A stretch of DNA of 23,837 nucleotides from a virus: positions 1 to 23,837 of IMG/VR virus record IMGVR_UViG_3300005262_000015, one strand, 5' to 3'. Made by a program: the position numbers and the translations under genes. A model generated the notes under the pieces. The model made no database searches. It was given only the letters and a program-made list of their open reading frames with translations, and was not told where the DNA came from. Positions 707 through 14,433 of this stretch are shown in pieces (within the stretch, counting starts at the first letter, position 1; the number at the start of each line of letters is the position of its first letter).

Positions 707-721
707 AAATCCGAAATCGGC

Positions 722-808: not shown

Positions 809-974
809 CATTCCAATTTCAGAGCTCGGATGGCTGCGACGCTCCGTGGCTTCGCCTCGATGATGCGCGGTCACCGCAGCGCGATCAGCCCGCCGTCGTT
901 CGAGCCATCACTGTCCAGACCGGCGTGAGCGTGCCGGGCGGTGGCGGACGGCTCTCGCGAGTAAATTGTGTGGG

Positions 975-1060
975 GACGCTCCGCGGCGGAGGTGCAGATC
1001 TCCGCGAGGGTTGGCGGCGGCGACGCCAATTCGGCCGCGCGGCTGGTGCACATCATCCAT
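975..1060 (+). pseudogene. portal gene sliver (internal fragment)
   Basis: This stretch aligns without gaps to portal bases about 3715-3800. In 1011-1060 against 3751-3800, roughly 41 of 50 bases agree, including the shared stretches GCCAATTCGG and GCGGCTGGTG. It stops matching after about 1060 and is flanked by unrelated sequence, so it is a recombination remnant rather than a gene. It lies 2.4 kb before the main portal copy, the only such fragment on that side. The rest of the 707-1228 gap shows no gene. Confidence 0.7.
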
Positions 1061-1228
1061 TGGTGGCAGCCGAGATCTCGTTTGATTTCGTTTCCTCTTT
1101 GTTCTATCAAACCAGAGATAGCGAGTTGATGATAGCGCTCTCAGGATGCGACGGGTGCCGGAGTTGGTATTAGCGGCCTTGTCGTGCAACCGGCGAGGCG
1201 ACGTGCACCCAATCCCCTGGGGTAAGCA

Positions 1229-1708
1229 ATGAAGTATCTATCGGGCGAAGCTCCAGAAATGCCGAAGTTTCCCATACTCAAAGTTCTCGCGCTCCTGGCA
1301 ATCGCCTTCATGATCTCCGGATGTTCGTGGTCCGGGCCGTGGCCTCGCGTCGACATCGATCTCGAGCCCTTGGGCAAAGGTGAGCTGGCGAAGTTCATTG
1401 GCCGCAACTCCAACCACGGCGTCGATGATCTGCCGCAACTGACGAAACAGTTCATCGTCGAACAGACCTCTGCCAAGGGCATTTCTCGCGACGACGCAGA
1501 AGCTCTTGGTTTGCAGTGCGCCCCGGCGCCCAGCAAGGAGTGCAGCTATTCGGGCGAATACTGGGTTCGAGACGACCAGCGATATGTCCCGCGCAATGGT
1601 CCCGACTATCGAGCACGATCAGTTTATCATATCGACGTCCGGCTCTCGTGTTTGAAGCCGCATGACGCCGTCGTGCAAGCTCATAAACGCTACGTTCCCG
1701 ATGAGTAA
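1229..1708 (+). CDS. small lipoprotein, candidate periplasmic immunity or accessory protein
   Basis: 159 residues with a clear lipoprotein signal: a hydrophobic stretch at residues 16-29 followed by lipobox ISGC, with Cys32 as the lipidation site. The mature part (about 127 residues) is soluble, with two further Cys pairs in the regions ALGLQCAP/KECSYSG and RLSC, and a Tyr/Arg-rich end. GGGG lies 6 bases before ATG 1229; the in-frame ATG at 1259 would also keep the lipobox. The family is not recognised. It follows an M23 peptidase and comes 12 bases before the next cargo gene. A membrane-anchored periplasmic protein next to a cell-wall enzyme suggests self-protection, but a phage spanin or unrelated lipoprotein cannot be excluded. 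Confidence 0.7.
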   Translation: MKYLSGEAPEMPKFPILKVLALLAIAFMISGCSWSGPWPRVDIDLEPLGKGELAKFIGRNSNHGVDDLPQLTKQFIVEQTSAKGISRDDAEALGLQCAPAPSKECSYSGEYWVRDDQRYVPRNGPDYRARSVYHIDVRLSCLKPHDAVVQAHKRYVPDE

Positions 1709-1719
1709 GCAGGTGAATT

Positions 1720-2799
1720 ATGGCGGAAGGCCAATATCGTATCGTCAAAGTGGAGCTTCCCCTTCTTGGTGGGATCGCCGGCCACAATTTTCTCGCGTTG
1801 ATCGACCCGAATGGGAACGTGATTGGCGAGTTTCACGGCCTGGCGACTGACGCGGAGGGACATGCCAAGCCTATCGGAAATTTGCCGTCTGACAGGTTGA
1901 AAGGCCACGATGACAAGCGCTGGTATCAACCCGATTTTGCTCAGGCAGAGGTAGCCTCGGGCGATCAGGCCAGGATCATGAATCTGTGGAACGCCGCCGC
2001 AGCTGCCCGCACAAATATGGACGCGCGGGACATCCATTATCCCTGGTTCGGACTAGGTCAGAACAGCAATTCGTATTTGAGCACGTTGATCGCTTCCATG
2101 GGCTTGACGGAGCCGCGGCTGCCTGGCGGCGCGCCCGTGAAGCCAGGCGCGGGAAGCATGTTGCTCGACCCGAAGGACATTCAGGATATCCAGCGGCAGT
2201 TCAATATCGGTGTGGTCCGCTCCGGGAGTGCATCGAACTCAGGTCCGCAGCCGGGCGGTGTCGATCAGCCGAGCCGTTTTGATTCAGTTACATCACCGTT
2301 TGGTTCTGTTGGAGCACCGGGCGACCGCGCAATTGCACCATCGGCCCGCACTCCACGTTCTCCGGTCCCGCTCCCGCAGGACTTGCCCAGCACCGCGGTC
2401 TCCGGTGCGAAAGGTCCGACGTCGCTAGGTGGGCCTAATGGTCCAGCACCATTGGCGCCACCTTTGCCCTCTCGCTCACAGCTTCCCGCAAGGCCCGCCC
2501 CGGCGGGCGATCCGATGCTGCGGCCGTTGCACTTCGCGTCCGATCAGCTCAGTTCGCCTGCGTTTCCTCCGACACGATTTCCACTCGAGGCGCTGCTGGC
2601 GCCCGATCGCAGTGGCGCGTTGGATCAATGGGCCGCGTCTTCATCGCGGAGGGACGCGTCTGCATCCAGGCAACCTGCTTCCGCGGGCCTGCCAGACGAG
2701 GCCCCCTCGATTGCACGGGACGATCCATCCAATTTGGATCGGCCGGCTGGAGGACTGCTCGGCATGATCCAGCAATACATGCGCAGTGGCGGATACTAG
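1720..2799 (+). CDS. large proline-rich phage cargo protein of unknown function
   Basis: 359 residues in two parts. The first 140 are globular: a GHNFLALIDPNG motif at 21-32, GEFHGLATD at 36-44, and GQNSNSYLSTLIASMGL near 111-127. This His-first, Asn/Ser-later order recalls circularly permuted papain-like (LRAT/NlpC-type) folds, but no Cys stands in the expected place, so this is a guess. Residues 150-340 are Pro/Ser/Ala-rich and probably disordered. The C-terminus, GGLLGMIQQYMRSGG, resembles a segment of the M23 protein encoded at 13524-14378 (GGLPGMIADYLRQTQ), so the two share a tail module. It follows the lipoprotein gene after 11 bases. No signal peptide is present. Confidence 0.6.
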   Translation: MAEGQYRIVKVELPLLGGIAGHNFLALIDPNGNVIGEFHGLATDAEGHAKPIGNLPSDRLKGHDDKRWYQPDFAQAEVASGDQARIMNLWNAAAAARTNMDARDIHYPWFGLGQNSNSYLSTLIASMGLTEPRLPGGAPVKPGAGSMLLDPKDIQDIQRQFNIGVVRSGSASNSGPQPGGVDQPSRFDSVTSPFGSVGAPGDRAIAPSARTPRSPVPLPQDLPSTAVSGAKGPTSLGGPNGPAPLAPPLPSRSQLPARPAPAGDPMLRPLHFASDQLSSPAFPPTRFPLEALLAPDRSGALDQWAASSSRRDASASRQPASAGLPDEAPSIARDDPSNLDRPAGGLLGMIQQYMRSGGY

Positions 2800-2914
2800 G
2801 CTCGCTCAACAGCAAACGGTCCCTGTCACTTCGCAATCAGCATGGCAGTATGATTGTGCTCTGTTGTGTGTGACTGCTGGACGACTTCTTGCTTTGTCTT
2901 GGAGCCGATATCAG

Positions 2915-3163
2915 ATGGTAGTCGGTTGGGTTCTGGAGTTGATCTGGTGGGGCGTCGGCTATGCCGTGGCACGACTGGTGCTGCCTCTCGCATCTTTCGG
3001 CAAGGTCCAGGTTGGGACCGCCCGCGACTCCGGCGGATTTGGTTGGCTGGGTGTGCGACGCATCGACAATGGACGATTTGAAGTCGAGGCTACTTTCGCT
3101 GCACTGGTCGGCTTGGTGATTTGCTGCGCCGGGCTTGCAGCAACTATGTACTTTGTTCATTGA
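2915..3163 (+). CDS. small inner-membrane protein, candidate immunity partner
   Basis: 82 residues if begun at ATG 2915 (GGAG about 10 bases upstream). A longer reading from GTG 2786 overlaps the preceding gene and has no better ribosome site. Two hydrophobic stretches flank a short polar loop: residues 3-28 and the C-terminal LVGLVICCAGLAATMYF. It should span the membrane twice. I do not recognise a family. As the gene directly after a cargo protein, it would fit a membrane-located protector, or equally a holin-like or orphan membrane protein. Nothing in the 214 bases between it and the portal gene looks coding. Confidence 0.5.
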   Translation: MVVGWVLELIWWGVGYAVARLVLPLASFGKVQVGTARDSGGFGWLGVRRIDNGRFEVEATFAALVGLVICCAGLAATMYFVH

Positions 3164-3428
3164 GTGGCCGCACTTTCGGCCCTCGTATCAGAAGCGAGCG
3201 GACGACGTCGCCCCTTTGGGCGCTGCGACTGGCTGTCTGAGACAACCATTAACCGCGCGTCCCAATTTTTGAGACAGGTCACCGAAGGGGCCGTTTCTGT
3301 CTGTGGGGCGTCGCCTTGATGTCCGCCAGCGGACTGCTCTTCCAGTCTGAAAATAGAGCGCAGCAGCGCTGATCAAATTGACGACTCGCGGCAACCAGCG
3401 CCCGACGCGATCGAAGGTTCAACAAAAT

Positions 3429-5090
3429 ATGTCCATTCCCTTGCTGGCCCCGGCGCAACCCGCGCCGATGGGCTCTCTCGTCACGCATGACGTCACCATC
3501 GTCACCACGCGCAAGCTTGCGCAGGCGCGGGTGATGGGGGTGCCGCCCGAAGAGTTCGGCATCGAGCGCGGTGCGCGCAGCATCCGCGACTGCAATTATT
3601 GCTTCCACGAAGTCGTCACCAAGACCGAGGCGCAGCTGATCGCGGAAGGCTTTGATGCCGGTCAGATCAGGGCCTTGCTGCCGCACAACGGCACGAGCGA
3701 GATCGAGACGCTGGCGCGCGACACGGTGGAGGAGCATCTGTCCGCAACCGCCGGCGGCGGCAGCGCCAATTCGGCGGCGCGGCTGGTGCGCATCACCGAG
3801 CACTACGTGCGGATGGACTATGAGGGCTCGGGCCGTCCCTGCCTTTATCAGGTCATCACCGGCGGCGACCAGGCCGAGATCTTGCGCAAGGACGGCAAGG
3901 ACTGCATCACGCCGTTCGACGAGATGCCGTTTGCGGCGACCACGCCGGTGCCGGTGACGCATCGCTTCTTCGGACGCTCGATCGCCGATCTCGTGATGCC
4001 GCTGCAGCGCGAGAAGACGGCGCTGAAGCGCGGCGCGCTCGACAATCTCTATTTGCACAACAACCCGCGTGTCGAGGTCGCTGAGCAGAACGCCGGGCCG
4101 AACACGCTGGACGACCTCCTGGTGTCGCGGCCGGGCGGCGTCGTCCGCACCAAGACTGCGGGCGGGCTGAACTGGCAGGTGGTGCCCGACATCACCACGT
4201 CGATCTACCCGATGCTGCAATATCTCGACGCCGAGCTCGAGATCCGCACCGGGCTGGCCAAGCAGGCGCAGGGCATCGACGCTAACGCGCTGCAGAACCA
4301 GTCGGCTACGGCAGTCGCGCAGGTCTTCTCGGCCTCGCAGATGCGCATCAAGCTGATCGCGCGCGTCATGGCTGAAGGCGTGCGCGACATCTTCGCGCTG
4401 CTGCACGGCACGATCCGCAAGCATGGTCAGCGCGAGGAGACGGTGCGGCTGCGCAACACCTGGGTCGCCGTCAATCCGCGCAATTGGAAGACGCGCGAGG
4501 ACATGACCATCAATGTCGGCCTCGGCGCGGGCGGCAAGGCGCAGCAATTCGCCCAGACCATGGCGATCGCCAACGTGCAGAAGGAGCTGCTTGCCGGCGG
4601 CAAGCTCAACCTGGTCGGCGACCGCCAGCTCTACAACACTGCGGCCGAGCTGACGCGGATCATGGGGCACCGCAATCCCGACCAGTTCTTCAGCGATCCC
4701 ACGGCCGTCAATCCGCAGACCGGGCAGCTGTTGAATCCACCGCCGGCACCGCCGCAGCCGCCACCCGATCCGAAATTGCTGGCGCTTCAAGCGCGCGTCC
4801 AGGCCGATCAGCTCGCCGCTGCGCACAGGGTGCAGATCGAGCGCGAGAAGGCGCAAGCAGATGCGATCCATCTCCAGGTCAAGACCCAAGGAGAGATCGA
4901 GCTTGCCAAGATCAAGGCCGCGCTCGACGCCAAGATGACGGTGCTGGAGACGCATCTGAAGGCGGCGATCGAGGCAGGCAAAGTACAGCGCTCATATCCG
5001 CCAGGCGCCCGCAAGGCGAGAGACGGCCACCACTACGTGCCGGACCCGAGCCGTCCCGGAAAGCATCTGCTGGTCGTTCATCATGGCTGA
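3429..5090 (+). CDS. phage portal protein, SU10/P22-like type, 5'-truncated
   Basis: Portal subunit: forms the dodecameric ring at the head vertex through which DNA enters and leaves. Recognised from VMGVPPEEFGIERGARSIRD near the start, the FFGRSIADLVMPLQREKT segment, and the long Gln/Lys/Ala-rich helical C-terminus after a PPAPPQPPP hinge. From memory of the family, the VPPEEF segment normally lies some 200 residues in, whereas here it is about 35 residues from the first ATG, so the N-terminal third is missing. ATG 3429 is preferred over TTG 3378, with GAAGG upstream. The stop overlaps the next gene's start by 8 bases. Parts of this gene recur at 975, 6972, 9665, 11262 and 11778. A functional head would need an intact copy elsewhere. 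Confidence 0.85.
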   Translation: MSIPLLAPAQPAPMGSLVTHDVTIVTTRKLAQARVMGVPPEEFGIERGARSIRDCNYCFHEVVTKTEAQLIAEGFDAGQIRALLPHNGTSEIETLARDTVEEHLSATAGGGSANSAARLVRITEHYVRMDYEGSGRPCLYQVITGGDQAEILRKDGKDCITPFDEMPFAATTPVPVTHRFFGRSIADLVMPLQREKTALKRGALDNLYLHNNPRVEVAEQNAGPNTLDDLLVSRPGGVVRTKTAGGLNWQVVPDITTSIYPMLQYLDAELEIRTGLAKQAQGIDANALQNQSATAVAQVFSASQMRIKLIARVMAEGVRDIFALLHGTIRKHGQREETVRLRNTWVAVNPRNWKTREDMTINVGLGAGGKAQQFAQTMAIANVQKELLAGGKLNLVGDRQLYNTAAELTRIMGHRNPDQFFSDPTAVNPQTGQLLNPPPAPPQPPPDPKLLALQARVQADQLAAAHRVQIEREKAQADAIHLQVKTQGEIELAKIKAALDAKMTVLETHLKAAIEAGKVQRSYPPGARKARDGHHYVPDPSRPGKHLLVVHHG

Positions 5091-5180
5091 TTATTCTCTG
5101 GTGCCGGTCGAGCATCAGCCGGACTTCGAGAATGTCACTCTCGTTCCTGTTGAGCACGATCCGTTCAGTGCCGATGACGT
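4850..5180 (+). repeat. portal 3' end plus cargo leader repeat, copy 1
   Basis: First of three imperfect direct repeats joining the last portal codons (KTQGEIELAKIKAALDAKM, then RSYPPGARKAR) to the leader of the next gene (DYSLVPVEHQPDFENV). The other copies are at about 7035-7350 and 9795-10110. The copies differ at scattered third positions, so they are diverged paralogues or imports from related phages, not recent tandem duplicates. Different cargo follows each. Confidence 0.85.
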
Positions 5181-6114
5181 AACGCAGCGGGCGCAAAGCC
5201 CGCAAGCGCAGACTCAACACCCTGCGATGGGATCCAGCGCACCGACACTTGGCGTTTCAACAACAGACTCCACGGGATCTGCTCTCACGGCAGGGGCCAG
5301 TGACTTCTTCAGGTCCATCCCTCGCGGGGTCGTCTCTGGCTTCAATAGCGCGGCGAGCGCATTGGGACGCGCCACGCAGGCCGAGATGGGGCAAGACGTC
5401 GACGCGCCGACTCCAGAACAGGGAATGCAGATTCTCGAGAAGGAAGTCACGGGGCCGATGTACAGGCCGGAAGGCCGGGCGGGCCAATTCGGTGCATCAG
5501 TCGGGGAGTTTCTCGGCAATCCGGCTTCCTATGTGGCGCCTGGAAGCGTGCCTCTCAAAGTCGGAGCGGCTGTGCTGGGAGGCCTGGGAAGCGAAGCCGG
5601 AGGCCAACTTGGCGAAGGGACTCCTTGGGAAGGGCCTCTCCGATTCGCCGGCGGTGCACTCGGCGTGCTCGGTCCGCTCGGTGCGGCCAGGTTAGGAACG
5701 GGCGCACGCGCCGCGCAGACTCTGCCGCGCGCCGCAGAAGAAGCGAGCGCAGGGCTTGGACGAGCGGCAGAGAACGCGCCATCAACCTTTTATAGAGGCG
5801 ATCAAGCCGGCCTCACGGAATTCCGGTCGCATGCCGCACGAGTGGGAGGCCAAGCCCACTCCGAAGCGGTCTTGGCAAAAGGGGATAAGCACGACTTGAT
5901 GACGAAGCACTCGCTTGACAGCCGAAATCCGCCGTCTCCATATATCGCCGTAACCACCGATCCTAACGTTGCCCGATTGCACGGTGAAACGACCTACCGG
6001 CTGCAATTGGCACCCGGCCGAGCAACTCCAAACTCATTCAGTCGATATAGCGAAAGCGAATATCTAGTTCCGCACTACATATCACCGGATGAAATCAAAG
6101 GGACACTTCCATAA
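5083..6114 (+). CDS. leader-bearing cargo protein with C-terminal ADP-ribosyltransferase-like toxin domain
   Basis: 343 residues. Residues 1-30 are the shared leader with a doubled LVPVEHxP motif; 31-65 are a polar linker; 70-205 are Gly/Ala-rich, with FFRSIPRGVVSGFNSAASAL and a second apolar stretch around 150-205, like phage ejection-protein or pre-toxin segments. Residues 234-343 carry an ADP-ribosyltransferase-like pattern: FYRGD (Arg238), SPYIAVTTD (Ser285, Thr291-Thr292) and SESEYLVP (Glu324-x-Glu326), matching the R / S-T / ExE signature of enzymes that move ADP-ribose from NAD to a target. The ATG lies inside the last codons of portal, so translation may be coupled. Two small genes follow at once. 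Family is called from motifs; the target is unknown. Confidence 0.75.
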   Translation: MADYSLVPVEHQPDFENVTLVPVEHDPFSADDVTQRAQSPQAQTQHPAMGSSAPTLGVSTTDSTGSALTAGASDFFRSIPRGVVSGFNSAASALGRATQAEMGQDVDAPTPEQGMQILEKEVTGPMYRPEGRAGQFGASVGEFLGNPASYVAPGSVPLKVGAAVLGGLGSEAGGQLGEGTPWEGPLRFAGGALGVLGPLGAARLGTGARAAQTLPRAAEEASAGLGRAAENAPSTFYRGDQAGLTEFRSHAARVGGQAHSEAVLAKGDKHDLMTKHSLDSRNPPSPYIAVTTDPNVARLHGETTYRLQLAPGRATPNSFSRYSESEYLVPHYISPDEIKGTLP

Positions 6115-6127
6115 GTCAGGGTGCGAC

Positions 6128-6478
6128 ATGCCGACATTTCCATTGCCTCCGTTTCCAGCATACATCCCGACGAAAAGTCTCAAGCTGTCTGATGTGCCGA
6201 ACGAATCAGAGTCGTTGCGGGTCATTGGACGGTTCGCGTTGACTTTTGATCGGTCCGAGGACGACCCATACAAGCTTGACTGGCGGGACCTGCCTGCCTT
6301 GTCAACCGATAGCGGGCTGGTGCGGCTTCGGGCGCACCTGTTCTTGGCGCAACGGCGCTGGAACCATATGAGCGGCGAGCCGGACGACAGCACCATCTTA
6401 GCTATCCGAAGGGTTGTTGCTCTCATTCGCGCGATGTTGTCCGAGCAAAGCAAAGATGCATCGGAGACCGAAGCATGA
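6128..6478 (+). CDS. small cytoplasmic protein, candidate immunity to the ART-like toxin
   Basis: 116 residues from ATG 6128 (AGGG 8 bases upstream); a longer reading from ATG 6089 would overlap the toxin gene. It has no signal peptide or membrane segment, begins with a Pro/Phe-rich stretch (MPTFPLPPFPAYIP), and ends in a helical region with ALIRAMLSEQ. I know no family for it. Its position 13 bases after the toxin gene, and the ATGA overlap with the following gene, point to a co-translated toxin/immunity unit. Either this gene or the next, or both, could give protection. Confidence 0.6.
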   Translation: MPTFPLPPFPAYIPTKSLKLSDVPNESESLRVIGRFALTFDRSEDDPYKLDWRDLPALSTDSGLVRLRAHLFLAQRRWNHMSGEPDDSTILAIRRVVALIRAMLSEQSKDASETEA

Positions 6479-6954
6479 AATATCCTGCCCCCACTTGGCG
6501 AGGGCTCGTCCGCGCGGAAGCGCCAGGCTGGTTTGTGGATCGGATGGCGCATTACACAGACCGGCAGAGGAGCTTTCTGGTCTACGAGCATGGGACTGCG
6601 GTTTTTGATAATGGCTCATCCGAGCCGGATATTGCTAAATGTAACGCGGCGTTGCTGGACGTCGTAACGCATGCGCCTGACTTTTCGGTCAGGCCGATGC
6701 GCGACGGTAACTTCATCGTCGAGTTCAAGGGGCCGGTATACGGCCTCGTCGATGGTGGGTTCTTTAAGCAGAATCGACACCAGCTATCGCTAGATGCGAA
6801 GAAGCATGGTCTGATTCCTACCGAGAAACTTTTGTATCCGAATGAAGCCAGCGTTAAAGCTGGTGAGCATGTCATCGGTCTTTACGCACGCGCAAATCTG
6901 TTTCTGGATGTTGAGTCCCCCGTTGTCGTAGGACGGTTTACTCCGTCCATTTGA
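6475..6954 (+). CDS. second small cytoplasmic protein in the ART cassette, candidate immunity
   Basis: 159 residues, soluble, starting inside an ATGA overlap with the gene before it. The middle holds a compact alpha/beta-looking segment (SFLVYEHGTAVFDNG, then FSVRPMRDGNFIVEFKGPVYG); the end is apolar (GEHVIGLYARANLFLDV). The Gly-Asn-Phe-Ile-Val-Glu-Phe strand is of a kind seen in small immunity-like proteins, but I cannot assign a named family. The gene ends 17 bases before a portal fragment begins, so it closes the first leader cassette. It could protect against the ART-like domain or be an orphan. Confidence 0.6.
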   Translation: MKYPAPTWRGLVRAEAPGWFVDRMAHYTDRQRSFLVYEHGTAVFDNGSSEPDIAKCNAALLDVVTHAPDFSVRPMRDGNFIVEFKGPVYGLVDGGFFKQNRHQLSLDAKKHGLIPTEKLLYPNEASVKAGEHVIGLYARANLFLDVESPVVVGRFTPSI

Positions 6955-6971
6955 ACCTTGCCGGAGAGAAG

Positions 6972-7269
6972 CCGAGCGCAGCTCGACTCCGCGCTCGCAG
7001 CGCATCAGGCGCAGCTCCAGCAGCAGAAGGCTCAGAGCGACGAGATCCATCTCCTGGTCAAGACCCAAGGAGAGATCGAGCTCACCAAGATCAAGGCCGC
7101 CCTCGACGCCAAGATGACAGTGCTGGAGACGCATCTGAAGGCGGCGATCGAAGCAAGGAAGGCGCAGCGCTCATATCCGACGGGCGCGCGCAAGGCGAGA
7201 GACCGCCACCACTATCTGCCGGACTCCAACCGTCCCGGCAAATATCTACAGGTCGTTCATCATGGCTGA
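6972..7269 (+). pseudogene. portal C-terminal fragment, second copy
   Basis: An open frame gives AQLDSALAAHQAQLQQQKAQ and continues with KTQGEIELTKIKAALDAKM, LETHLKAAIEA and RSYPTGARKARDRHHY, parallel to the last ~100 residues of the portal protein. There is no convincing ribosome site or start, and the rest of the portal is absent. Like the parent gene it ends in VVHHG, with the leader ATG of the next gene 8 bases before its stop. It may still be transcribed and read through into the next cargo gene, which would keep the coupled start working. Confidence 0.8.
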
Positions 7270-7350
7270 TTATTCTCTGGTGCCGGTCGAGCACCAGCCG
7301 GATTTCGAAAACGTCTCGCTCGTGCCGGTCGAGCACGATCCGTTCAGCGA
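7035..7350 (+). repeat. portal 3' end plus cargo leader repeat, copy 2
   Basis: Second copy of the repeat that begins at 4850. Bases 7061-7320 follow 4891-5140 closely, including the overlapping stop and start (CATCATGGCTGA). Divergence from copy 1 begins just after the second LVPVEHDPFS motif, so homology covers the junction of two genes and stops where the variable cargo begins. Confidence 0.85.
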
Positions 7351-7948
7351 TAGTGGCCTGCCCCAGCAGACGCCTGCGCAGCTGGCGCAGATGCCGATTC
7401 AGTTTCCGCAGGGCCAGCCGCCGGTTCGACAGGCGCAGTCCCCGCAGACACAGGCACAACCAGCACGGCCAGAGCCGTCAACGCTGCCGCAACAACCGGC
7501 AACGGGAGCCAATCAACCCGTGTTGAATGGAGGGGGCTATGGTGGGGCGTTTGGCAGCGTTGGAAGTGATTCAAGCGTTGGAAGTGATTCAAACAATCCG
7601 CCATCGGATCAGGGAGCGGCCGAGCCAGCTCCTTTTGGCGGCTACGCCAATCCGACGCGCGCGGAGTCGCTGGTTAATCAGGCCAAGATGAACGCCCAGA
7701 AGAAAACGATCGAAGCCGACTCAGGCGCAGGTCGCGACTTGGATGGAGGAGAACTCTACGGCTTTGCGACCACAAAACTCCCGATCTCGGAATTTCCGAT
7801 CGACGGGGGGACAGGACGGCAGTTCACAACAGACAGGCCGTTCTACGCATTTGACGGAAAGCGCTATGCGATCATCGATGCCAGCCCAGAGCGGCCGGTG
7901 ACTGTCAAAATCCCCGAGGACGGGAAGTTCTCGATAACTCGTCCTTGA
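7262..7948 (+). CDS. leader-bearing cargo protein with unassigned C-terminal domain
   Basis: 228 residues. Residues 1-30 are the leader MADYSLVPVEHQPDFENV plus SLVPVEHDPFS. Residues 36-120 are a Gln/Pro/Ala then Gly/Ser-rich linker that includes a doubled VGSDS unit encoded by an 18-base tandem repeat. Then comes PFGGYANPTRAESLVNQAKM, a motif repeated at the end of the next gene's product. The last ~80 residues (ELYGFATTKLPISEF ... RYAIIDASPERPVTVKIP) look like a small beta-rich domain of no family I know. Its neighbour is a secreted protein, so if this is a toxin it probably acts in the periplasm. It may also be a truncated structural protein. Confidence 0.65.
   Translation: MADYSLVPVEHQPDFENVSLVPVEHDPFSDSGLPQQTPAQLAQMPIQFPQGQPPVRQAQSPQTQAQPARPEPSTLPQQPATGANQPVLNGGGYGGAFGSVGSDSSVGSDSNNPPSDQGAAEPAPFGGYANPTRAESLVNQAKMNAQKKTIEADSGAGRDLDGGELYGFATTKLPISEFPIDGGTGRQFTTDRPFYAFDGKRYAIIDASPERPVTVKIPEDGKFSITRP
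7556..7591 (+). repeat. 18-base perfect tandem repeat, two units
   Basis: The unit AGCGTTGGAAGTGATTCA occurs twice without mismatch inside the linker-coding part of the cargo gene, giving the doubled SVGSDS peptide. Perfect identity suggests recent slippage. It keeps frame and only lengthens a flexible linker. Confidence 0.9.
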
Positions 7949-8019
7949 AAGGGTTGCGATATTGACGGCCGGCTTACATATCCTACTGGCTCTCTTTCCG
8001 CCAAGTATGAGGCAAACCG

Positions 8020-8958
8020 ATGTTGCGGGCAGCTCGGATTATTTTGGCACTGGCGGCGACGGTGCTCGCTCCGGTCGCGCTGGCACAAAAATCAAGCGGG
8101 TACATGGACCTGAATGATTTGAGCAGCGATTACGGTGCGCAGCTCGCTGTCTTCCGCATCGTGATTTCGAAAACCGACGCGATCTGCCCGCAGCAAACGG
8201 GACTATTTCGAATTGCGCCGAATGGCAGCGTGAGTGACATCGAGGCCATTCTCTCGTGGCCCCTCGAGTGGGTCAGCAGCGGCGGCAAGGTTATGGACCT
8301 ATCGCCCGTTCCCGCCCCCGATGACTTTACGTACCGCCGGCGTCTCGCGATGGAGGCCTGCCGCATTGATCTTGACATCACCGAGCAACAGAAACGGGAT
8401 GGCGAGTGGGTGCCGTTGTTGTCGCGACTACGACCCAATGCTCCGGAACGGCCGAGTGCCACCCCGAGTCACGCAATCGACGAGCCGCCGGCCATGTCGT
8501 CAGCCGGAATCGAGGCGTTCGATCGGCACATGCGCGCGCGGGCGCATGCGGGAAATTTACTGCAGGGATGGATCGCGACTTCGAAGGGCACGGTGGGATT
8601 TGAGGGGGCGAAAGACTGCTTCGATGCAGTTGCGACTTATCGGATCGATCAACTCGGCTTGACGCTGTTGTTTCCCGCCGGCCTGGAAGGAGAACTTAAT
8701 CGGTTCTTTATCGAGCGCGTCGACGCCGATGCCGACCACAGCACACTCTTTCTCTCGCGCGGTTCCTGCCGCGTCGGGTTTACGATCAGCGCGTCGATCT
8801 TCCGCGATGGCGTCTGGATTCCGCTCCCCATCGCGCCGCCAAGGCCGCAGCCGAGCCCGGATGCCGGCCCTGCCTTTGGCGGCTACGCCGACCCGACGCC
8901 GGCTGAGTCTCTAGCCAATCGGGCTCAGATGGAAGAGCTGATGAGAATGAGGAAATAG
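8020..8958 (+). CDS. secreted two-domain protein, candidate periplasmic immunity
   Basis: 312 residues with a standard signal peptide (residues 1-22, cut after VALA). The mature protein contains two related halves: each has a Cys (56; 190), then a second Cys in CRIDLDI or CRVGFTI (114; 240), then 13 residues later DGEWVPL or DGVWIPL. The pattern suggests an internal duplication with one disulfide per half. The C-terminus, FGGYADPTPAESLANRAQM, repeats a motif of the preceding cargo protein and looks grafted on. GAGG sits 8 bases before ATG 8020. It is the first gene after a leader cargo gene, so periplasmic protection is a fair guess. I know no family name for the halves. Confidence 0.65.
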   Translation: MLRAARIILALAATVLAPVALAQKSSGYMDLNDLSSDYGAQLAVFRIVISKTDAICPQQTGLFRIAPNGSVSDIEAILSWPLEWVSSGGKVMDLSPVPAPDDFTYRRRLAMEACRIDLDITEQQKRDGEWVPLLSRLRPNAPERPSATPSHAIDEPPAMSSAGIEAFDRHMRARAHAGNLLQGWIATSKGTVGFEGAKDCFDAVATYRIDQLGLTLLFPAGLEGELNRFFIERVDADADHSTLFLSRGSCRVGFTISASIFRDGVWIPLPIAPPRPQPSPDAGPAFGGYADPTPAESLANRAQMEELMRMRK

Positions 8959-9037
8959 CAGTCCAAGAGAAGCGACATCCAACCGGTCGGCGGTTCAACC
9001 GCAGAGCCTTGCTGGCGATTATCTTGAGGAACTTCCA

Positions 9038-9300
9038 ATGCCAGATACGACAGTTAAGTATGTCGTAATCGACCACAATCCCGGGCCGTTGACGGTGATC
9101 GTGCAGCCTTGGGCTGAGTAGGTTGTTCTTTCGTCGGATTCTCAACTATTGCTGAAGTCCTTTGCGACAGGGAAGGTGTGCTGGAAGTGGTGCCGAGCGG
9201 CAACTTCCTTACCGTATGGGTTTGGACTGGATGTCGAGCCATGCTTGTTTTGAATGGCCAGGATCTAACCTTGCCATGGCTTCTCAGGCCATCTCCTTGA
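9038..9300 (+). pseudogene. broken small gene, probable immunity relic
   Basis: A strong ribosome site (GAGGAA, 6 bases before ATG 9038) begins a frame reading MPDTTVKYVVIDHNPGPLTV and IVQPWAE, then a TAG at 9119. The same frame continues VVLSSDSQLLLKSFATGKV; then one base (a G near 9178) appears to be missing, and the shifted frame continues VLEVVPSGNFLTVWVWTGCR and ends at TGA 9298. Rejoined, it would encode a coherent protein of about 87 residues. Two independent lesions mean it is dead. The good ribosome site shows it was once expressed. Small size and setting suggest an immunity gene whose toxin has been lost. Confidence 0.7.
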
Positions 9301-9578
9301 GGTTCTTTCCCATCAACCCTCGCACGCAGAAAACTAGTTTCGAGCCGGTCTACGTCATGATGTTGGATCAGAAACCCGACTTTCCTCGGGGCCTCATACC
9401 ATTCGCCGACGATCCCTCAGGGGACATGTTTCTTTATAGTGTGAAGCCAGAGTCGTTTGGGAATATCATGTTCATTTCCCACGAAGATTATGAAGATCCT
9501 GATCGATACATTGTGTTTCTCGCCCCAACGCTGAAGCAATTTATCGAGTCTCTCACTGAACTACCTGAAGGGTTGTAG
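9276..9578 (+). pseudogene. SUKH (SMI1/KNR4-like) immunity protein, C-terminal fragment
   Basis: The frame reads FFPINPRTQ, then PRGLIPFADDPSGDMFLYSV, GNIMFISHEDYEDPDRYIVF and LAPTLKQFIESL. The order 'IPFA-D-x-x-GD-F-y-v', a short strand, then an end helix is that of the SUKH superfamily, common immunity proteins for bacterial nuclease and other toxins. A full SUKH protein has about 130-150 residues and starts with an N-terminal half that is missing here; at most 100 residues are open from ATG 9276, and the first ten overlap the neighbouring relic. It is best read as a truncated orphan immunity gene. It might still make a short protein. Confidence 0.7.
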
Positions 9579-9664
9579 TGGCAGCGGAGCGGTACGGTCT
9601 AAGGATCTGCGGGCAAGATCGTGATTGTGTGGCTCGACGCCTGTAGAATGAAGGCACGCGGGCC

Positions 9665-10003
9665 GAACGCCTGCTGAAGCAACTCCCTGCCGCACCGACC
9701 GCCGCCCGAACCAAAATTACTGGCTGTGGAGGCGCGGGCGTAGGTCGACGCCGCGCTCGCGGCGCAGCTCGGCAACAAAGAGCACAGCACGACGCGATCC
9801 ATCTCCAGGTGAAGACGCAAGGAGAGATCGAGCTCGCCAAGATCAAAGCCGCCCTCGACGCCAAGATGTCCGTGCTGGAGACGCATCTCAAGGCGGGGAT
9901 CGAAGCGGGGAAAGTGCAGCGCTCATACCCGCCGGGTGCACGCAAGGCGAGAGACGGCCACCATTATGTGCCGGACTCGAACCGTCCCGGCAAATATCTG
10001 TAA
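9665..10003 (+). pseudogene. portal C-terminal fragment, third copy (frameshifted)
   Basis: Begins with PPPEPKLLAVEARA in the portal frame, meets a TAG at 9739, and after a frame change near 9800 continues as KTQGEIELAKIKAALDAKM, LETHLKAGIEAGKVQRSYPP and RKARDGHHY up to TAA 10001. The upstream part is much more decayed than the last 200 bases. The parent gene's overlap with the leader start is gone: here the stop precedes the leader ATG by 11 bases. Confidence 0.8.
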
Positions 10004-10110
10004 GGTTGTTCCTCATGGATGACTATTCTCTGGTGCCGGTCGAGCATCAGCCGGACTTCGAGAATGTCGCTCTCGTTCCAGTCGACCACGATCCGTTCAG
10101 TGCCGATGGC
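9795..10110 (+). repeat. portal 3' end plus cargo leader repeat, copy 3
   Basis: Third copy of the repeat at 4850 and 7035. The leader reads MDDYSLVPVEHQPDFENV here, followed by ALVPVDHDPFSADG. The junction differs: an inserted GTAAGGTTGTTCC-like stretch separates portal stop and leader start. Homology again ends just after the second LVPV motif. Confidence 0.85.
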
Positions 10111-10677
10111 CTCATGCCGCAGGCGCCGGGGCCACAAGCGCAGGCTCAGCCACCGCAGACAACACCGACTTCACCAGCGCAGCCGGCGCCACTGGCCCAG
10201 CCGCAACAGCCTCATGACAGAATCGCGAGCCATGCGATGGACCAGATAGGTTCAGAAAAATGGAGCGATGATGCAGCGAAAGGATTCTACAAGGCGCATA
10301 GCAACAAATGCAACCTGTTCGTGTATGATATCCTGACCGGGGCCGGAGCGAGCCCAGGTTATCCTAACGGGTCATGGTTGTTTTCCTATCCGCCGACGGC
10401 AGGGCAATGGGCAAACCCAAACTACCCGATCCGTGGATGGCGCGTGCTGGGCCCAGAGGAAGCTCCCAGGGCGGGCGATGTCGTGACTCAGAAGATTGAC
10501 TATAGGGATGCGAGCGGGCATGTGATGATTGTTGGACCAGACGGTCACCACTTTATTGGTACAGGAACCAGCGCCGGGCAGCCGCACGGCACCATCGTGC
10601 ATATGCCGCCGCGAGATAATCTGGGCCCAGATGGCGCCTCGCATGGGCCACTCGTGTTCAGACGTTTTGGAGAGTAG
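10015..10677 (+). CDS. leader-bearing cargo protein with CHAP/NlpC-P60-like amidase domain
   Basis: 220 residues: leader (1-30), Gln/Pro/Ala linker (35-66), then a papain-like cell-wall hydrolase domain (70-220). The catalytic pattern is visible as NKCNLFVYDIL with Cys99 at the head of a helix, and SGHVMIV with His169; PRAGDVV just before is the usual strand leading to the His. Such enzymes cut amide bonds in peptidoglycan stem peptides, like the Tae amidase effectors. ATG 10015 is preferred over the in-frame TTG 10006 because it restores the leader. It lacks a signal peptide, so it needs a delivery route. The next gene starts 2 bases after its stop and encodes a secreted protein, as expected for toxin and periplasmic immunity. 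Confidence 0.8.
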   Translation: MDDYSLVPVEHQPDFENVALVPVDHDPFSADGLMPQAPGPQAQAQPPQTTPTSPAQPAPLAQPQQPHDRIASHAMDQIGSEKWSDDAAKGFYKAHSNKCNLFVYDILTGAGASPGYPNGSWLFSYPPTAGQWANPNYPIRGWRVLGPEEAPRAGDVVTQKIDYRDASGHVMIVGPDGHHFIGTGTSAGQPHGTIVHMPPRDNLGPDGASHGPLVFRRFGE

Positions 10678-10679
10678 CG

Positions 10680-11279
10680 ATGCGACGGTTGGGCCTGTGT
10701 TTGGCTTTGTGCTTTGGATACCTGGCAGCTTACTGCCCAGTGTTCGCAGACCCGGCGGATCAGCCTGATTCTAGCGTCCGAATGAGTGATTTTGCCAGGC
10801 AGGTTGTCACGGTCGATAAACAAGCCGGGCAAATCATCGCTCTGAAAGGGCTGCTTACCTACGAGCCGTTCGTCAAACTTGCCAATGAGGGGAGCAAGAA
10901 TATTGATGCATGTATTCAGTTCCTGAGCGAGCAGGGGCACACGCCGCAACAGCGAGATATCGCAATCTTGTCCATGCACAAGCTGGCTTTTCAAGACGAC
11001 GTCGTGTTTCTGAGAAAACTGGCAGAGGCGTTCGACCAAGGGCTGGTATCCCCCGTTGAACTTGGTTCGGCGGTAGCTCCAACGTGGGCGTTCTCCACTG
11101 CGCTTATCGAGAATTACACGGACGACGGCGTTCGGTCAGTTCTCAGGGAGATCGCAGCGCGAAAGGATATTCGCCCCCAAACCAGATCTATCATTGAAGG
11201 CACACTTTCCGGCCAAGCGGCCGCCGACTTGCGATGGTCCCGGTGGAATTCTGGTTCCACAAAATCTCCACCTCGCTAA
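10680..11279 (+). CDS. secreted helical protein, candidate periplasmic immunity to the amidase
   Basis: 199 residues with a signal peptide (residues 1-23, cut after VFA). The mature part is predicted helical from its sequence (KLANEGSKNIDACIQFLSEQ, VVFLRKLAEAFDQG, DDGVRSVLREIAAR). GGAGAG lies 5 bases before the ATG, inside the end of the amidase gene, so the two are co-translated. A helical periplasmic protein paired with a cell-wall amidase has the same logic as the Tae/Tai pairs of type VI secretion; I do not claim family membership. The final residues (STKSPPR) are encoded by DNA that already resembles the portal relic that follows, so the native C-terminus may have been replaced. Confidence 0.7.
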   Translation: MRRLGLCLALCFGYLAAYCPVFADPADQPDSSVRMSDFARQVVTVDKQAGQIIALKGLLTYEPFVKLANEGSKNIDACIQFLSEQGHTPQQRDIAILSMHKLAFQDDVVFLRKLAEAFDQGLVSPVELGSAVAPTWAFSTALIENYTDDGVRSVLREIAARKDIRPQTRSIIEGTLSGQAAADLRWSRWNSGSTKSPPR

Positions 11280-11360
11280 GCGTTACGTCAAGATAGCCGA
11301 GAAGAATGTGGGGCCGAATACGCTCGACGATCTTCTGGTGCCGCGGGCCGGGCGCCGTCG
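11262..11360 (+). pseudogene. portal gene internal fragment
   Basis: Aligns to portal bases about 4042-4142: the encoded VKIAEKNVGPNTLDDLLV parallels VEVAEQNAGPNTLDDLLV of the portal. The match ends near GGGCGCCGTCG. It overlaps the last codons of the preceding secreted protein and leads directly into a toxin relic, so it marks another cassette junction. Confidence 0.8.
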
Positions 11361-11369
11361 CAGGCGGTT

Positions 11370-11534
11370 CGAAAGGGAGTCAACGGGCATGGGACCGTGT
11401 TCAACCAGACCATCAATGTGACGGGAGCCAATGGCCGCACAATCCCGGTTGTCACGGGCCGGACGATCGGAAAGGACGGCGTGCCACGGCTCAATACAGC
11501 CTTTCAAAGTAAATCCAATGTTCGAGTTACATGA
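11370..11534 (+). pseudogene. toxin C-terminal relic, DUF6883-like
   Basis: A frame with no start of its own reads KGVNGHGTVFNQTINVTG, then ANGRTIPVVTG and KDGVPRLNTAF, ending at TGA 11532. The 'G-P/A-N-G-R-T' strand followed by a 'PRL-x-TA' end recalls DUF6883, a family I remember as often standing beside DUF4926 genes; the next gene is DUF4926-like, which supports this. Only about 50 residues are left. The 5' part was replaced by portal sequence. The stop overlaps the next gene's start region by 17 bases. Confidence 0.5.
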
Positions 11535-11769
11535 CGTCGTTATATTGAAGCATGAGATACCCGGGATACCGGTGCCGGCCGGTTCTCAAGGAACCATCGT
11601 GTACGTGCCTGACGGCGACCCATCAGGATTTCTGGTCGAGTTTACGGACGCGGTGGATGCATACGGTCGGGACGCGAACGGCGAGGATACGCTGGGAGTC
11701 TATCCCGTGCCCGCCGCCGATCTCAGGGAAGGCGATAATTCCTGGAAAGAAGCCAGGAAGCGTCGCTAA
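11518..11769 (+). CDS. DUF4926-like small protein, candidate antitoxin/immunity
   Basis: 83 residues from ATG 11518; a longer in-frame reading from 11431 would be shadow sequence of the toxin relic. It shows the DUF4926 pattern: LHDVVILKHEIPG at the start, PAGSQGTIVYVPDGDP (a small SH3-like turn), FLVEFTDAVDA, and an end with a VYPVPAADL strand. DUF4926 proteins are short, cytoplasmic and often lie directly downstream of a putative toxin gene. Here the start lies within the upstream relic, so it was translationally coupled. Its toxin is now truncated, leaving it as an orphan. Confidence 0.7.
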   Translation: MFELHDVVILKHEIPGIPVPAGSQGTIVYVPDGDPSGFLVEFTDAVDAYGRDANGEDTLGVYPVPAADLREGDNSWKEARKRR

Positions 11770-11777: not shown

Positions 11778-11995
11778 TCTAACGCGCATCGCGGGCCGCA
11801 CGAACCCGATCCTTTCGTCAGGGATCCGAGCGCGATCAACCGCAGGCCAGAAAATTCCAGCATCCGCAGCTACTGCCCGACCTGAAACTATTTGGCTGTG
11901 CAGGCGAGGGCAGATCGACGCGGCCCAGCAGGCGCACCCTCAGTAACAATTTGCGCCGAACAACGCGATCCGTACCCGGGTCGAGATGGGTTGGC
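11778..11995 (+). pseudogene. portal 3' region, heavily decayed fourth copy
   Basis: Follows portal bases about 4647-4880 with many changes: ACGCGCATC-x-GGGCC matches the LTRIMGHRNPD region, GATCCGAGCGCGATCAA the DPTAVN region, then CTGAAACTATTTGGCTGTG the PKLLAL region, ending in a ...GCGATCC block. Several stops break the frame. After this relic the ordinary phage gene order resumes. Confidence 0.65.
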
Positions 11996-12023: not shown

Positions 12024-12323
12024 ATGTCCGACGAGACGACACTGGAGAGGGCGGCCGCGCGGGCGGCCCGAGCCGAGGCGCTGCTCGACGACGAATTGCT
12101 GAGGGAGTCCTTCGACGCCCTCGAGCAGAGCTATGTCGCCGCTTGGCGCGCCACCGCGGTTGACGATACCGCGGGGCGCGAGAAGCTCTTCCTCGCCATC
12201 AACATCGTCGGCAAGGTGCGGGGCCATCTCGCCGGCGTGGTCGCGAACGGCAAGTTGGCGCGCGCGGAGCTGAAAGAGCTTGCGGAAACGGCAGAGCGGC
12301 GGAAGCGGTTCGGGATCATTTAG
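12024..12323 (+). CDS. small conserved phage protein of unknown function
   Basis: 99 residues, almost entirely helical and charged (RAAARAARAEALLDDELL, FLAINIVGKVRGHLAGVVAN, ELKELAETAERRKR). ATG 12024 is preceded by an ideal AGGAGGAA, the best ribosome site in the window. It looks like a small protein I remember near portal and capsid genes of other alphaproteobacterial prophages; no function is known to me. A scaffold-like or packaging role is possible from its helical character, but this is inference. It marks where the core phage genes continue after the cargo array. Confidence 0.7.
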   Translation: MSDETTLERAAARAARAEALLDDELLRESFDALEQSYVAAWRATAVDDTAGREKLFLAINIVGKVRGHLAGVVANGKLARAELKELAETAERRKRFGII

Positions 12324-12414
12324 CTGTTGCAACCAAAGCGAGAGTGGTGCAGGATGTTCCTTGTTTGTTCTTTGGAAGCTGGCACATCGCTTTGCCTAAC
12401 AGTTGAGTGATTTC

Positions 12415-13527
12415 ATGCGGTTCTGGCCGATTGATCTTGATCTGCGCTGTTCGCTTTTCTTGGCTGCGTTTGCGTTGCTTGCCCCGACGACGGCGTGCCG
12501 CGCCGAAGGAGCTTTGCCTGCCCCGCCAGCCAAGCCTCCGGTCGTTCCGACCTTCGAGAAATTGCCGCATGCGCCGTTGCCCAAGGGCGACTTCATCGGG
12601 TGGTGCGGGGATCGGGAGCGTTATCTGCTCGCGACGGATGGTGAGTATATCGACGCATACGATGGAAGCACGAAGATCTCCGCCCCGTCTCCCACAGGGT
12701 CCAGATGGACCCAATGCGGAGCGGACGGCAAGTACATCGTTTTTCCTGAGGAGGACGCCGGACGCGTGAGGAAGTTCGAGCTCGAGACCGGCAAGAGCGC
12801 GATCCTGGCGACGTACGACAGCCGGTCACGTCGGGAGATCGGCATGGCATTCTCCCCAGACATGAAGACCGTGGTGTCGGACCAGCCGCTGCAGTTGACG
12901 GCGGAGGCTGGACAGTTGCGCACGATCATCGTGCCCGGGACGGTCGGGCAGCCGGTCTATAAAATCGTTTGGTCTCCCGACAGCTCGAAATTCTTCGTGG
13001 CTCACGCCGATACAGTCGATGTCCTGGACGCGCAGGGCAAGAGGATCGGAGGTGGCAAGATTCGAAAGCTTGCGGGTGTAACCTCGGGGTGGTTTGACGT
13101 TGAACAGAAGTCACTATTTCTGTTTCTCGTGTCGGACGACATTCAGGGCATCGGCAATCTCGTGAGATGCCGCATCGCGGATTGGCGATGTGTGCAACTG
13201 AAGGAGCGCGTTGAGCAGGCCGCGGGCGGTGGCAAGGGATTAATGGGCATCGTCGTTCCGATCGACCGCCCGAAGCTGCCTGACGACGATTCAAGCGTTC
13301 CCTACCAGCGCTACGCGGCGGAGCTTCGCGACAATTCGTTTCGTCTGTTGGCTCGCCAGGAGTTTACCCGGGCAGCCGGTCAAACCAGCCCTCGGCTGTA
13401 TGTGTCCCCAACGGGCGCTACGGCGGTGCTGTCTTGGTGGCTGACGGAGCGGGCGAAATGTCCCGATGCCGCCAACGACAAATGCCAACCTGGATGGATA
13501 CTGGATATCGGAAAGGCCATTAAATGA
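12415..13527 (+). CDS. secreted beta-propeller-like protein
   Basis: 370 residues with a signal peptide (cut near residue 30, after CRA). The mature part has repeated WD40/PD40-like strand motifs: GMAFSPDMKTVVSD, KIVWSPDSSKFFVA followed by DTVDVLDAQGKRI, and RLYVSPTGATAVLSWW, so a beta-propeller is likely. Six Cys occur, probably as periplasmic disulfides (for example KCPDAANDKC near the end). ATG 12415 is preferred over the in-frame TTG 12403. Its stop overlaps the start of the M23 gene by ATGA. A secreted protein made together with a wall-cutting enzyme could be its protector, with the order reversed compared with the other cassettes. Confidence 0.65.
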   Translation: MRFWPIDLDLRCSLFLAAFALLAPTTACRAEGALPAPPAKPPVVPTFEKLPHAPLPKGDFIGWCGDRERYLLATDGEYIDAYDGSTKISAPSPTGSRWTQCGADGKYIVFPEEDAGRVRKFELETGKSAILATYDSRSRREIGMAFSPDMKTVVSDQPLQLTAEAGQLRTIIVPGTVGQPVYKIVWSPDSSKFFVAHADTVDVLDAQGKRIGGGKIRKLAGVTSGWFDVEQKSLFLFLVSDDIQGIGNLVRCRIADWRCVQLKERVEQAAGGGKGLMGIVVPIDRPKLPDDDSSVPYQRYAAELRDNSFRLLARQEFTRAAGQTSPRLYVSPTGATAVLSWWLTERAKCPDAANDKCQPGWILDIGKAIK

Positions 13528-14378
13528 GTGATCCTTACAATCCCGGGCCGCCGTTTCGCCCTACCTCGGCTTATGGCCGACGAAAAGATCCGATCACCGG
13601 CGAGCTGGGAAAATTTCACCCAGCTCAGGATTTCGCGGCTCGCCCCGGCACTCCGATTCCGGCAGCGGCACCGGGCGAGGTTGTTTACTCTGGTTTCAAC
13701 GACAACTTTGGCAACACCGTCATCGTGCGGAATGAGGCAGGCTATAGCCTCTATGCCCATATGGAAGATGGCAGCCCGATGCCAAAGGCCGGTCAGCGCG
13801 TATGGCCTGGAGATTTCATTGGCAATGTTGGGAGCACCGGTGCCCGCAGCACTGGCCCTCATTTGCATTATTCGGTCATCAAGAATGACCGAACAACGCG
13901 GGTCCTGGAGAACAAACGCGGAGGAGGGCCACTTGGCCTGGAACTGAACGGAGATCCGGACAAGACGCCGATCAACACTATCGACCCTGCAAGATACGAC
14001 ACTAGTGTGCCGTATCTGGTTCAGGCGGCTGCCACCGGAGCCAATGGCTCGGTCGTGCCTTCAGCACCGCTGAGTGGATTGGGCTTTCCAAATCGCGACG
14101 GCGTTGTTGCCGATCGCTTTGGAGCCTGGAATTCCCTGTCAGGTAACACGGCAAACGCTCGGTCGGCGGCGGTGCCGCGGGCCGGAGGATTGCCGGGCAT
14201 GATCGCCGATTATCTGCGCCAAACCCAGGGTGTGGCGAGCAATTCGCAATTGCATGTCCCGCCGGTGCCTTTCGTGGCTAACAATGATCGATTTTCAGAG
14301 GGGCAGCCGGCGACTTTCGATGATCGTTTTGGCGACTGGTCTCAAATTCGTCGATTGTCGTCGCATCGAGAGCCGTGA
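13524..14378 (+). CDS. M23-family metallopeptidase with phage tail-module C-terminus
   Basis: 284 residues. The M23 zinc site is complete: HPAQD (His32, Asp36), YAHM (His79) and GPHLH (His113, His115), so it should cut peptidoglycan crosslinks. The peptidase ends near residue 165. The C-terminal 110 residues carry two DRFGxW motifs (RFGAWNS and RFGDWSQ) around GGLPGMIADYLRQ, which resembles the end of the protein encoded at 1720-2799. No signal peptide. Translation is coupled (ATGA) to the secreted propeller-like protein upstream, and a secreted ClpP-fold protein lies downstream. It shares the fold with the product of 146-706, but the sequences differ widely, so they are not recent duplicates. 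Confidence 0.85.
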   Translation: MSDPYNPGPPFRPTSAYGRRKDPITGELGKFHPAQDFAARPGTPIPAAAPGEVVYSGFNDNFGNTVIVRNEAGYSLYAHMEDGSPMPKAGQRVWPGDFIGNVGSTGARSTGPHLHYSVIKNDRTTRVLENKRGGGPLGLELNGDPDKTPINTIDPARYDTSVPYLVQAAATGANGSVVPSAPLSGLGFPNRDGVVADRFGAWNSLSGNTANARSAAVPRAGGLPGMIADYLRQTQGVASNSQLHVPPVPFVANNDRFSEGQPATFDDRFGDWSQIRRLSSHREP

Positions 14379-14433
14379 TCGTTCCACGACAGGAGCCTGC
14401 CGCAATGTGCGACTTCCGGGCCAAGAGTCGAGA

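Follow-up and report, generated by a model that had tools for sequence, protein, structure and literature searches.

The window analysed here is IMG/VR virus record IMGVR_UViG_3300005262_000015 from position 1 to 23,837, a 23.8-kb stretch (23,837 nt) that, judged by its sequence, belongs to a phage-derived element related to the short-tailed SU10-type phages and found in soil Bradyrhizobium. The genes, gene remnants and repeat copies that we annotated in it between positions 131 and 16,544 are all on the plus strand. Our analysis concerns an array of three genes that begin with a common leader, followed by small genes and gene debris. As an earlier note on this DNA had proposed, the array lies between phage structural genes, namely that for the body of an SU10-type portal protein (3378–5090; PF23899, E=1e-124, profile positions 171–587) and that for the major head protein (15558–16544; phrog_1328, E=4e-99); other structural genes are also present in the window. 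About 6.9 kb of cassettes separate the portal gene from a conserved phage gene of 99 residues (12024–12323), which forms the downstream edge of the leader island; some 3 kb of further cargo then precede the head gene. The 99-residue gene is present in most of the loci that we read for comparison (designated by L-numbers) and is 62% identical in Bradyrhizobium phage ppBeUSDA76-2 (OP596614), the closest named isolate with a similar portal.

The leader array and its protein family

The leader comprises 28 residues, MxDYSLVPVEHQPDFENVxLVPVEHDPF, and is a tandem duplication of one motif. Its three copies, starting at 5083, 7262 and 10015, have 71–75% identity across 44 residues and hardly differ in the first 28, while the downstream halves of the three genes are unrelated to one another, just as the earlier note had described them. 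The repeated DNA is larger than that note had recognized: a unit of about 300–450 bp holds both the leader and the portal 3′ end, with the last 60–100 portal residues. Self-blastn placed the copies at 4758–5216, 6973–7390 and 9699–10148, with 81–86% DNA identity. At the edges, near 4820 and 5200, identity falls from above 80% to background within about 60 bp, and the repeat is thus far beyond chance. The portal protein ends in a C-terminal tail, RKARDGHHYVPDPSRPGKHLLVVHHG (5010–5087), that we regard as the probable partner motif of the leader; in Bradyrhizobium it was found only where the leader follows, and it also occurs in unrelated phages.

The first putative toxin gene (5083–6114) starts inside the portal stop, with an overlap of 8 nt, and encodes the leader, a hydrophobic middle domain and a tip with homologues in L004, L010 and L027. 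This tip, with the motifs FYRGD, SPYIAVT and ESE in this order, is possibly an ADP-ribosyltransferase (ART); Pfam support for the enzyme class is weak, and the label stays tentative because an AlphaFold model built with ten sequences was uninformative (mean pLDDT 33). The protein had no match among plasmids. Two candidate immunity genes follow, at 6128–6478 and 6475–6954, with counterparts of 78 and 86% identity in the same places behind the homologous toxin of L004. The second cassette opens with a portal remnant, an open reading frame (ORF) at 6958–7269 that ends in the tail motif. Its predicted toxin (7262–7948) has an all-beta tip of about 95 residues, delimited by alignment and modeled by AlphaFold with a pLDDT of about 85, for which the model gave no convincing PDB match. 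The candidate immunity gene behind it (8020–8958) encodes a signal peptide and is 58% identical to the gene after the same tip in L036; the pairing of this tip with a signal-peptide partner recurs in L015, L036 and L060. The third predicted toxin (10015–10677) has homologues in L059 and L058 and carries a CHAP-like peptidoglycan hydrolase tip, with a PF05257 match (E=3.5e-4) that lies under the curated cut-off; a PDB sequence search with this tip found nothing. It is followed by a further signal-peptide candidate immunity gene (10680–11279), 34% identical to the gene after the CHAP toxin of L059, where the pairing of CHAP toxin and partner gene thus recurs.

The earlier note had also reported small genes behind each leader gene and broken genes among the cassettes. 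Both are found: the small genes are of immunity type, and the debris can be assigned to its sources. A broken orphan immunity gene (9038–9297), of the type that partners DUF4951 toxins, matches L009:8771-9034 in two tblastn pieces in two frames (E=8e-18). Directly behind it lies an orphan SUKH immunity gene (9303–9578; PF09346, E=8e-9) of the WHH-nuclease partner type, which has lost its start and is 74% identical to the immunity gene L006:7123-7593. At the end of the third cassette and beyond it, portal scraps were found at 11206–11360 (blastn of 11287–11360 against 4071–4143, 80%; tblastn to portal residues 179–221) and, from the portal 3′ end, at 11875–11971 (blastn to 9704–9800, E=8e-5); between them, a DUF4926 protein (11431–11769; PF16277, E=3.6e-8) is a candidate orphan immunity protein.

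Scans for the leader recovered 46 loci from IMG/VR and 20 loci, nearly all Bradyrhizobium, from genome contigs, and a genus-wide search found it in 27 of 272 Bradyrhizobium species genomes. All loci read, which partly overlap, hold 143 leader genes encoding 96 distinct proteins. We rejected a restriction of the leader to Bradyrhizobium elements, as the scans found it in other phages. When the C-terminal domains were tabulated, tips and middle domains proved to be shuffled, with one tip on different middles and one middle on different tips. The SDFFRSIPRG middle carries the ART-like tip in the window (gene 5083), L004, L010 and L027, a WHH-type tip in L035 and L052, and a Tox-ART-HYD1 domain in L058; the WHH-type tip sits on another middle in L006, L007 and L030. 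Pfam identified WHH (E=1e-11), Tox-ART-HYD1 (E=2e-27) and NucA/NucB DNase (E=2e-6) tips, together with DUF4329, DUF4951 and a sub-threshold CHAP match; other tips are uncharacterised.

Cognate immunity genes stand directly downstream, pairing the WHH nuclease with SUKH, the NucA/B-like DNase with ComJ and Tox-ART-HYD1 with DUF6881. In Bacillus, ComJ is an inhibitor of NucA. Several of the immunity proteins have signal peptides, which implies periplasmic targets. Orphan modules accompany the main gene, in the form of shorter downstream leader genes and, in the window, of the two immunity remnants at 9038–9297 and 9303–9578. Collectively, the constant N-terminus, the exchanged C-terminal domains, the cognate immunity genes and the orphans make it well supported that the leader genes represent a family of polymorphic toxins, as the earlier note had read them. 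Since the leader is widespread, its C-terminal domains vary and cognate immunity follows, nothing was observed by which that note thought sequence data could refute its reading. NCBIfam gave no informative match, and a PDB sequence search with the leader found nothing. In a literature search on Bradyrhizobium prophage toxins and docking motifs of ejection proteins, with subscription papers largely outside its reach, we found no description of this leader.

The attachment of the leader genes to the portal gene is a general feature. In 42 cases with a full portal gene, the leader gene runs into the portal stop or directly adjoins it; nearly all full-portal phage loci show an overlap, usually of some 8 nt or a little less. 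Remnant portal ends usually keep the same spacing, and co-translation with the structural proteins is predicted. The first cassette, beside the full portal, has a median length of 299 codons versus 164 for later ones (Mann-Whitney p=0.001), which is what insertion of new cassettes beside the portal and decay of displaced ones would leave. With pN/pS values of 0.24 for the leader, where changes are mostly synonymous, and 0.17 for the head genes across relatives, both leader and head gene are, by this measure, under purifying selection; these values and the cassette lengths are descriptive, as related sequences are not independent.

Portal tails paired with leaders

In consensus form, the leader reads LVPVDHxPDF...LVPVDHDPF and the portal tail DGxHYVPDPxRPGKYLxV. 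Within Bradyrhizobium, the tail RKARDGHHYVPDPSRPGKHLLVVHHG was found in 16 genomes with the element, all 16 of which have the leader (one further, weak match lies elsewhere), and none of about 20 genomes with a tail-less portal has it, a co-occurrence that could be pure linkage, given that tail and leader adjoin on one DNA segment.

The stronger evidence comes from outside Bradyrhizobium. In phages with other portal families (phrog_12082, phrog_156), this tail closes the upstream protein and the leader motif opens the following gene, an arrangement that is also present in phages whose upstream gene could not be recognised as a portal gene. The carriers thus include three portal families and proteins at the positions of ejection proteins. 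A tail-only search of IMG/VR gave 25 distinct tails from outside the Bradyrhizobium lineage. A gene with the leader motif stood directly after 21 of them, compared with 1 of the 143 other ORFs in the same loci (p about 1e-21); this background count is the control that matters because the leader-motif pattern was written after examples had been seen. A PDB sequence search with the tail gave only weak matches to unrelated proteins.

An instructive case is Pam5, an isolated cyanobacterial podophage (PMC9382816). Its gp12 is a tail-lysozyme protein whose gene follows that for head completion. This protein ends in YVPDPNRPGKYLMVQP, and gp13 (692 residues) begins with MANLVPVDYDPF...KLVPVDHDPF; the same order of the two genes is found in L042, L070, L184, L201 and L205. 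Apart from the lysozyme domain, these Pam5-type proteins have no family match, and by their position we infer that they are a gp15-like and a gp16-like ejection protein. For T7, gp16 is reported to stabilise, through its N-terminal part, the flexible C-terminus of gp15 (PMC8954989).

A second code occupies the equivalent junction in other phages, first seen in ppBeUSDA76-2 (L050), where the tail reads QGYRFKGGxPADxxSWEKV and the leader holds two GPWEQY motifs. All 26 distinct cases with that tail (L050, L215–L257) are followed by a GPWEQY-like leader; the first code holds in 48 of 53 cases, one of which has both motifs, and among the cases compared no crossing of the two codes alone was found. 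A possible third code is suggested by two loci (L229, L233), in which the tail IVFKGGKWVPAQ (VFKGGKWVPAQ) precedes a leader with LPxGFVLDxP twice.

The recurrence of the pairs in unrelated phages and the non-crossing second code lead us to read the leader as what is probably a phage docking tag. The new element in this reading is that leader and portal C-terminal tail would form a two-part code. Whether short-tailed phages in general link consecutive virion and ejection proteins through a few non-crossing tail/leader codes, one of which a domesticated Bradyrhizobium phage turned into an open loading port for any leader-bearing toxin, to be injected into rivals and with its cargo exchanged by recombination, is a wider proposition to which we give even chances.

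Proposed use of the tag and the alternatives

For the element in the window, we consider it fairly probable that a polymorphic toxin system has settled in a phage head module, with the leader docking its cargo to the portal or ejection apparatus so that toxins are loaded in the head and injected. A cassette consists of the portal 3′ end, the leader, a variable middle with its toxin tip, and the immunity gene. As an N-terminal docking tag, the leader would bind the C-terminal tail of the protein encoded just upstream, which is the portal here and a protein at an ejection position in several phages, and the toxin would in this way come to lie next to the portal within the head. The toxin would then be injected, together with DNA or instead of it, into a related cell, and the immunity proteins would protect the producer. 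New cassettes would recombine in through the homology of portal end and leader and land beside the full portal, pushing older ones downstream, where the toxin genes would decay and the immunity genes persist. As the leader looks like a podophage tag linking injected proteins, the particle may be a loadable toxin injector. The earlier note had ascribed the constant part to a phage and suggested that the toxins may travel with the particle. In favor of this, the same leader follows virion proteins, including those at ejection positions, in unrelated phages; the suggestion is nevertheless supported only in part, since packaging, injection and toxicity are predictions from sequence and since genomes without such a phage have these leader toxins too, at a fixed site in the chromosome.

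Several points weigh against this explanation, among them the possible linkage of tail and leader in Bradyrhizobium and the tentative enzyme class of the first toxin, which rests on motifs and a poor model. Of the 27 leader genomes, 11 have neither portal nor head nor tail motif, and 14 chromosomal leader loci (L104–L117) all lie between phosphomannomutase and aspartyl-protease genes. Furthermore, particle formation is not certain, as the scaffold-like gene does not lie where it usually would, after the 99-residue gene and ahead of the head gene. In the element of genome G001 (L081–L083 joined), this gene was found at about 37599–38795, some 11 kb downstream of the head gene.

The chromosomal loci bear directly on the strongest of the alternatives, in which a host secretion system recognises the leader as its signal and the phage-borne copies are passengers using that system. 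At one site in Bradyrhizobium chromosomes, and often in genomes without a related phage, the 14 loci hold between one and three consecutive cassettes, mostly with intact toxin-immunity pairs; eleven leader genomes lack phage head and portal, and the signal peptides of several immunity proteins fit with toxins that act in the periplasm. However, the proteins that bear the leader in Pam5 and other phages are long and encoded at ejection positions, with no toxin-immunity arrangement seen, and the phage copies appear translationally coupled to the portal, so that we regard a host secretion signal as unlikely. The chromosomal loci could be exchange reserves, immunity stores against the particle, relics, or the mark of another machine that recognises the leader.

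The repeats themselves allow a further explanation, in which portal end and leader persist solely because their DNA provides homology arms when cassettes are exchanged, the leader having no role as protein and the toxins not being loaded. Their 81–86% DNA identity over portal 3′ end and leader, their sharp edges and the portal scraps between cassettes are what such arms would leave. Yet leader changes are mostly synonymous (pN/pS 0.24), the same amino-acid pair is found on unrelated carriers in unrelated phages, and other phages have a different pair at the equivalent junction; homology arms as the whole explanation are decidedly unlikely. We rate no higher the view that the toxins are never delivered and work within the lysogen, either as addiction modules or by excluding competing phages. 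Adjacent toxin and immunity genes with often overlapping start and stop are in line with it, as are the intact pairs that persist at the phage-free chromosomal site, but CHAP tips directed at peptidoglycan and signal-peptide immunity proteins make little sense for a cytoplasmic module, and a conserved leader with swapped tips is characteristic of polymorphic toxins that are delivered.

In 8 of 8 genomes (seven with the leader and one leaderless relative), the element occupies one chromosomal neighborhood, adjoining CoA-transferase and acyl-CoA dehydrogenase genes, but only about 15% of species carry the phage genes. Within about 200 kb of the element in these eight genomes there was no Phage_integrase match (serine recombinases were not searched for), no tRNA was found in the element flank loci scanned, and no repressor or replication genes were evident in two element regions read. 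Together with the displaced scaffold-like gene, this suggests what may be a domesticated particle. An ordinary decaying prophage that picked up toxin genes by chance would account for the several pseudogenes, the absence of a tyrosine integrase near the element in the eight genomes and the displaced scaffold gene, but is very improbable in view of purifying selection on head and leader, the single chromosomal neighborhood and the recurrence of the same architecture in dozens of loci.

Phage-borne polymorphic toxins have an existing precedent in the MuF toxins of temperate phages (Zhang et al., 2012, PMC3482391; Jamet et al., 2017, PMC5576092; for Bxa, PMC11699363). As in the MuF arrangement, the toxin gene lies directly 3′ of the portal gene, a constant phage-derived N-terminus precedes a variable tip, an immunity gene follows, and loading into the head is predicted. 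What differs is the constant part, here a tandem motif of 28 residues that has a portal tail as its partner, and the setting, an SU10-type element of Alphaproteobacteria with several cassettes in a row and repeats of the portal end. We rejected membership in the MuF, Rhs or CDI systems because the defining domains were not found: no leader protein scanned against Pfam matched the MuF family, and the leader proteins scanned contained no Rhs repeats and no CdiA-type exoprotein or CdiB transporter family. In the orphan arrays of Rhs and CDI systems, displaced cassettes keep a piece of the constant region, toxin genes decay and immunity genes survive. The presumably older, displaced cassettes of the leader array resemble them in all three respects, with the difference that the constant region is here a phage portal end plus tag.

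Podophage ejection proteins, such as gp14/gp15/gp16 of T7 and gp7/gp20/gp16 of P22 (reviewed in PMC8954989), share with the leader proteins that the same tail/leader pair joins consecutive genes at ejection positions in other phages, and that the N-terminal part of T7 gp16 contacts the gp15 C-terminus; in the window, by contrast, the leader has the portal as its partner and heads short toxins instead of long channel proteins. Some leader proteins of other phages have a weak ART-PolyVal match and are probably delivered by the virion, like the polyvalent proteins of phages (Iyer et al., 2017, PMC5512222), from which the Bradyrhizobium leader toxins differ in being short, single-tipped and paired with immunity genes. 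With ppBeUSDA76-2, finally, the element shares the structural gene order, a portal of 70% and a head protein of 71% identity. In that phage, however, the portal gene is directly followed by the 99-residue gene, the scaffold gene in its usual place and the head gene, and there is no leader, portal tail or cassette island; its different tail/leader pair sits on its ejection-type proteins.

The window thus appears to hold phage-borne polymorphic toxins of a new form, with a putative docking code behind them. If this is true, a 28-residue tag suffices to address cargo to a phage head, podophages follow a simple rule in choosing which proteins to inject, and phages became toxin carriers along a further route that is independent of MuF. 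Nitrogen-fixing soil bacteria would then also be predicted to discriminate kin by means of head-borne toxins.

Flanking cargo islands

The leader array belongs to a larger set of cargo islands, at about 131–3163 (island A), 12403–15276 (island C) and possibly 20539–22043. Island A starts with an M23-type peptidoglycan peptidase gene (131–706; PF01551, E=3.7e-10), followed by a portal gene scrap (947–1066; portal residues 76–115, tblastn 45% identity, E=9e-5), in which 72 nt (984–1055) are 81% identical to 3724–3795 by blastn. Behind it are a lipoprotein-like candidate immunity gene (1229–1708), assigned by position and sequence, a candidate effector gene (1720–2799) and the gene of a small membrane protein (2786–3163) that its sequence makes a candidate for immunity; neither candidate immunity protein had a Pfam match. 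The candidate effector ends in a C-terminal tag, AGGLLGMIQQYMRSGGY, common to island-A proteins of related elements. Island C holds the gene of a candidate immunity protein that is probably periplasmic, to judge from its sequence (12403–13527; no Pfam match), and an M23 peptidase gene (13524–14378; PF01551, E=1.3e-23), whose product carries the C-terminal tag SQIRRLSSHREP, also present on island-C proteins elsewhere.

Read across the window and L084–L092, cargo proteins encoded ahead of the portal body, among them that of 1720–2799, have the common C-terminal tag GGLLGMIQDYLRNN, and many of those encoded ahead of the head gene, including that of 13524–14378, have another, RRLxxR or RYLSSxR. 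Several of the tagged proteins contain M23 peptidase domains, and the tags also occur in leaderless relatives. Further downstream, a 72-bp stretch that includes the first codons of the tail gene (22053) is present twice, at 20467–20538 and 22044–22115 (94%), on either side of a two-ORF insert (20539–22043); this is possibly another cassette insertion, which would have brought along a piece of the neighboring phage gene.

In relatives, the first 170–180 or so portal residues are encoded by a separate upstream ORF, which lies outside the window here. Such split SU10-type portals were seen in L004–L069 and L084–L098, with the N-terminal ORF directly abutting the portal body in some phages and up to several kb of cargo between the two in others; the portal of L099 is unsplit. 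The portals at L174:385-3099 and L212:85-3075 apparently have a terminase-like ATPase segment between two portal halves.

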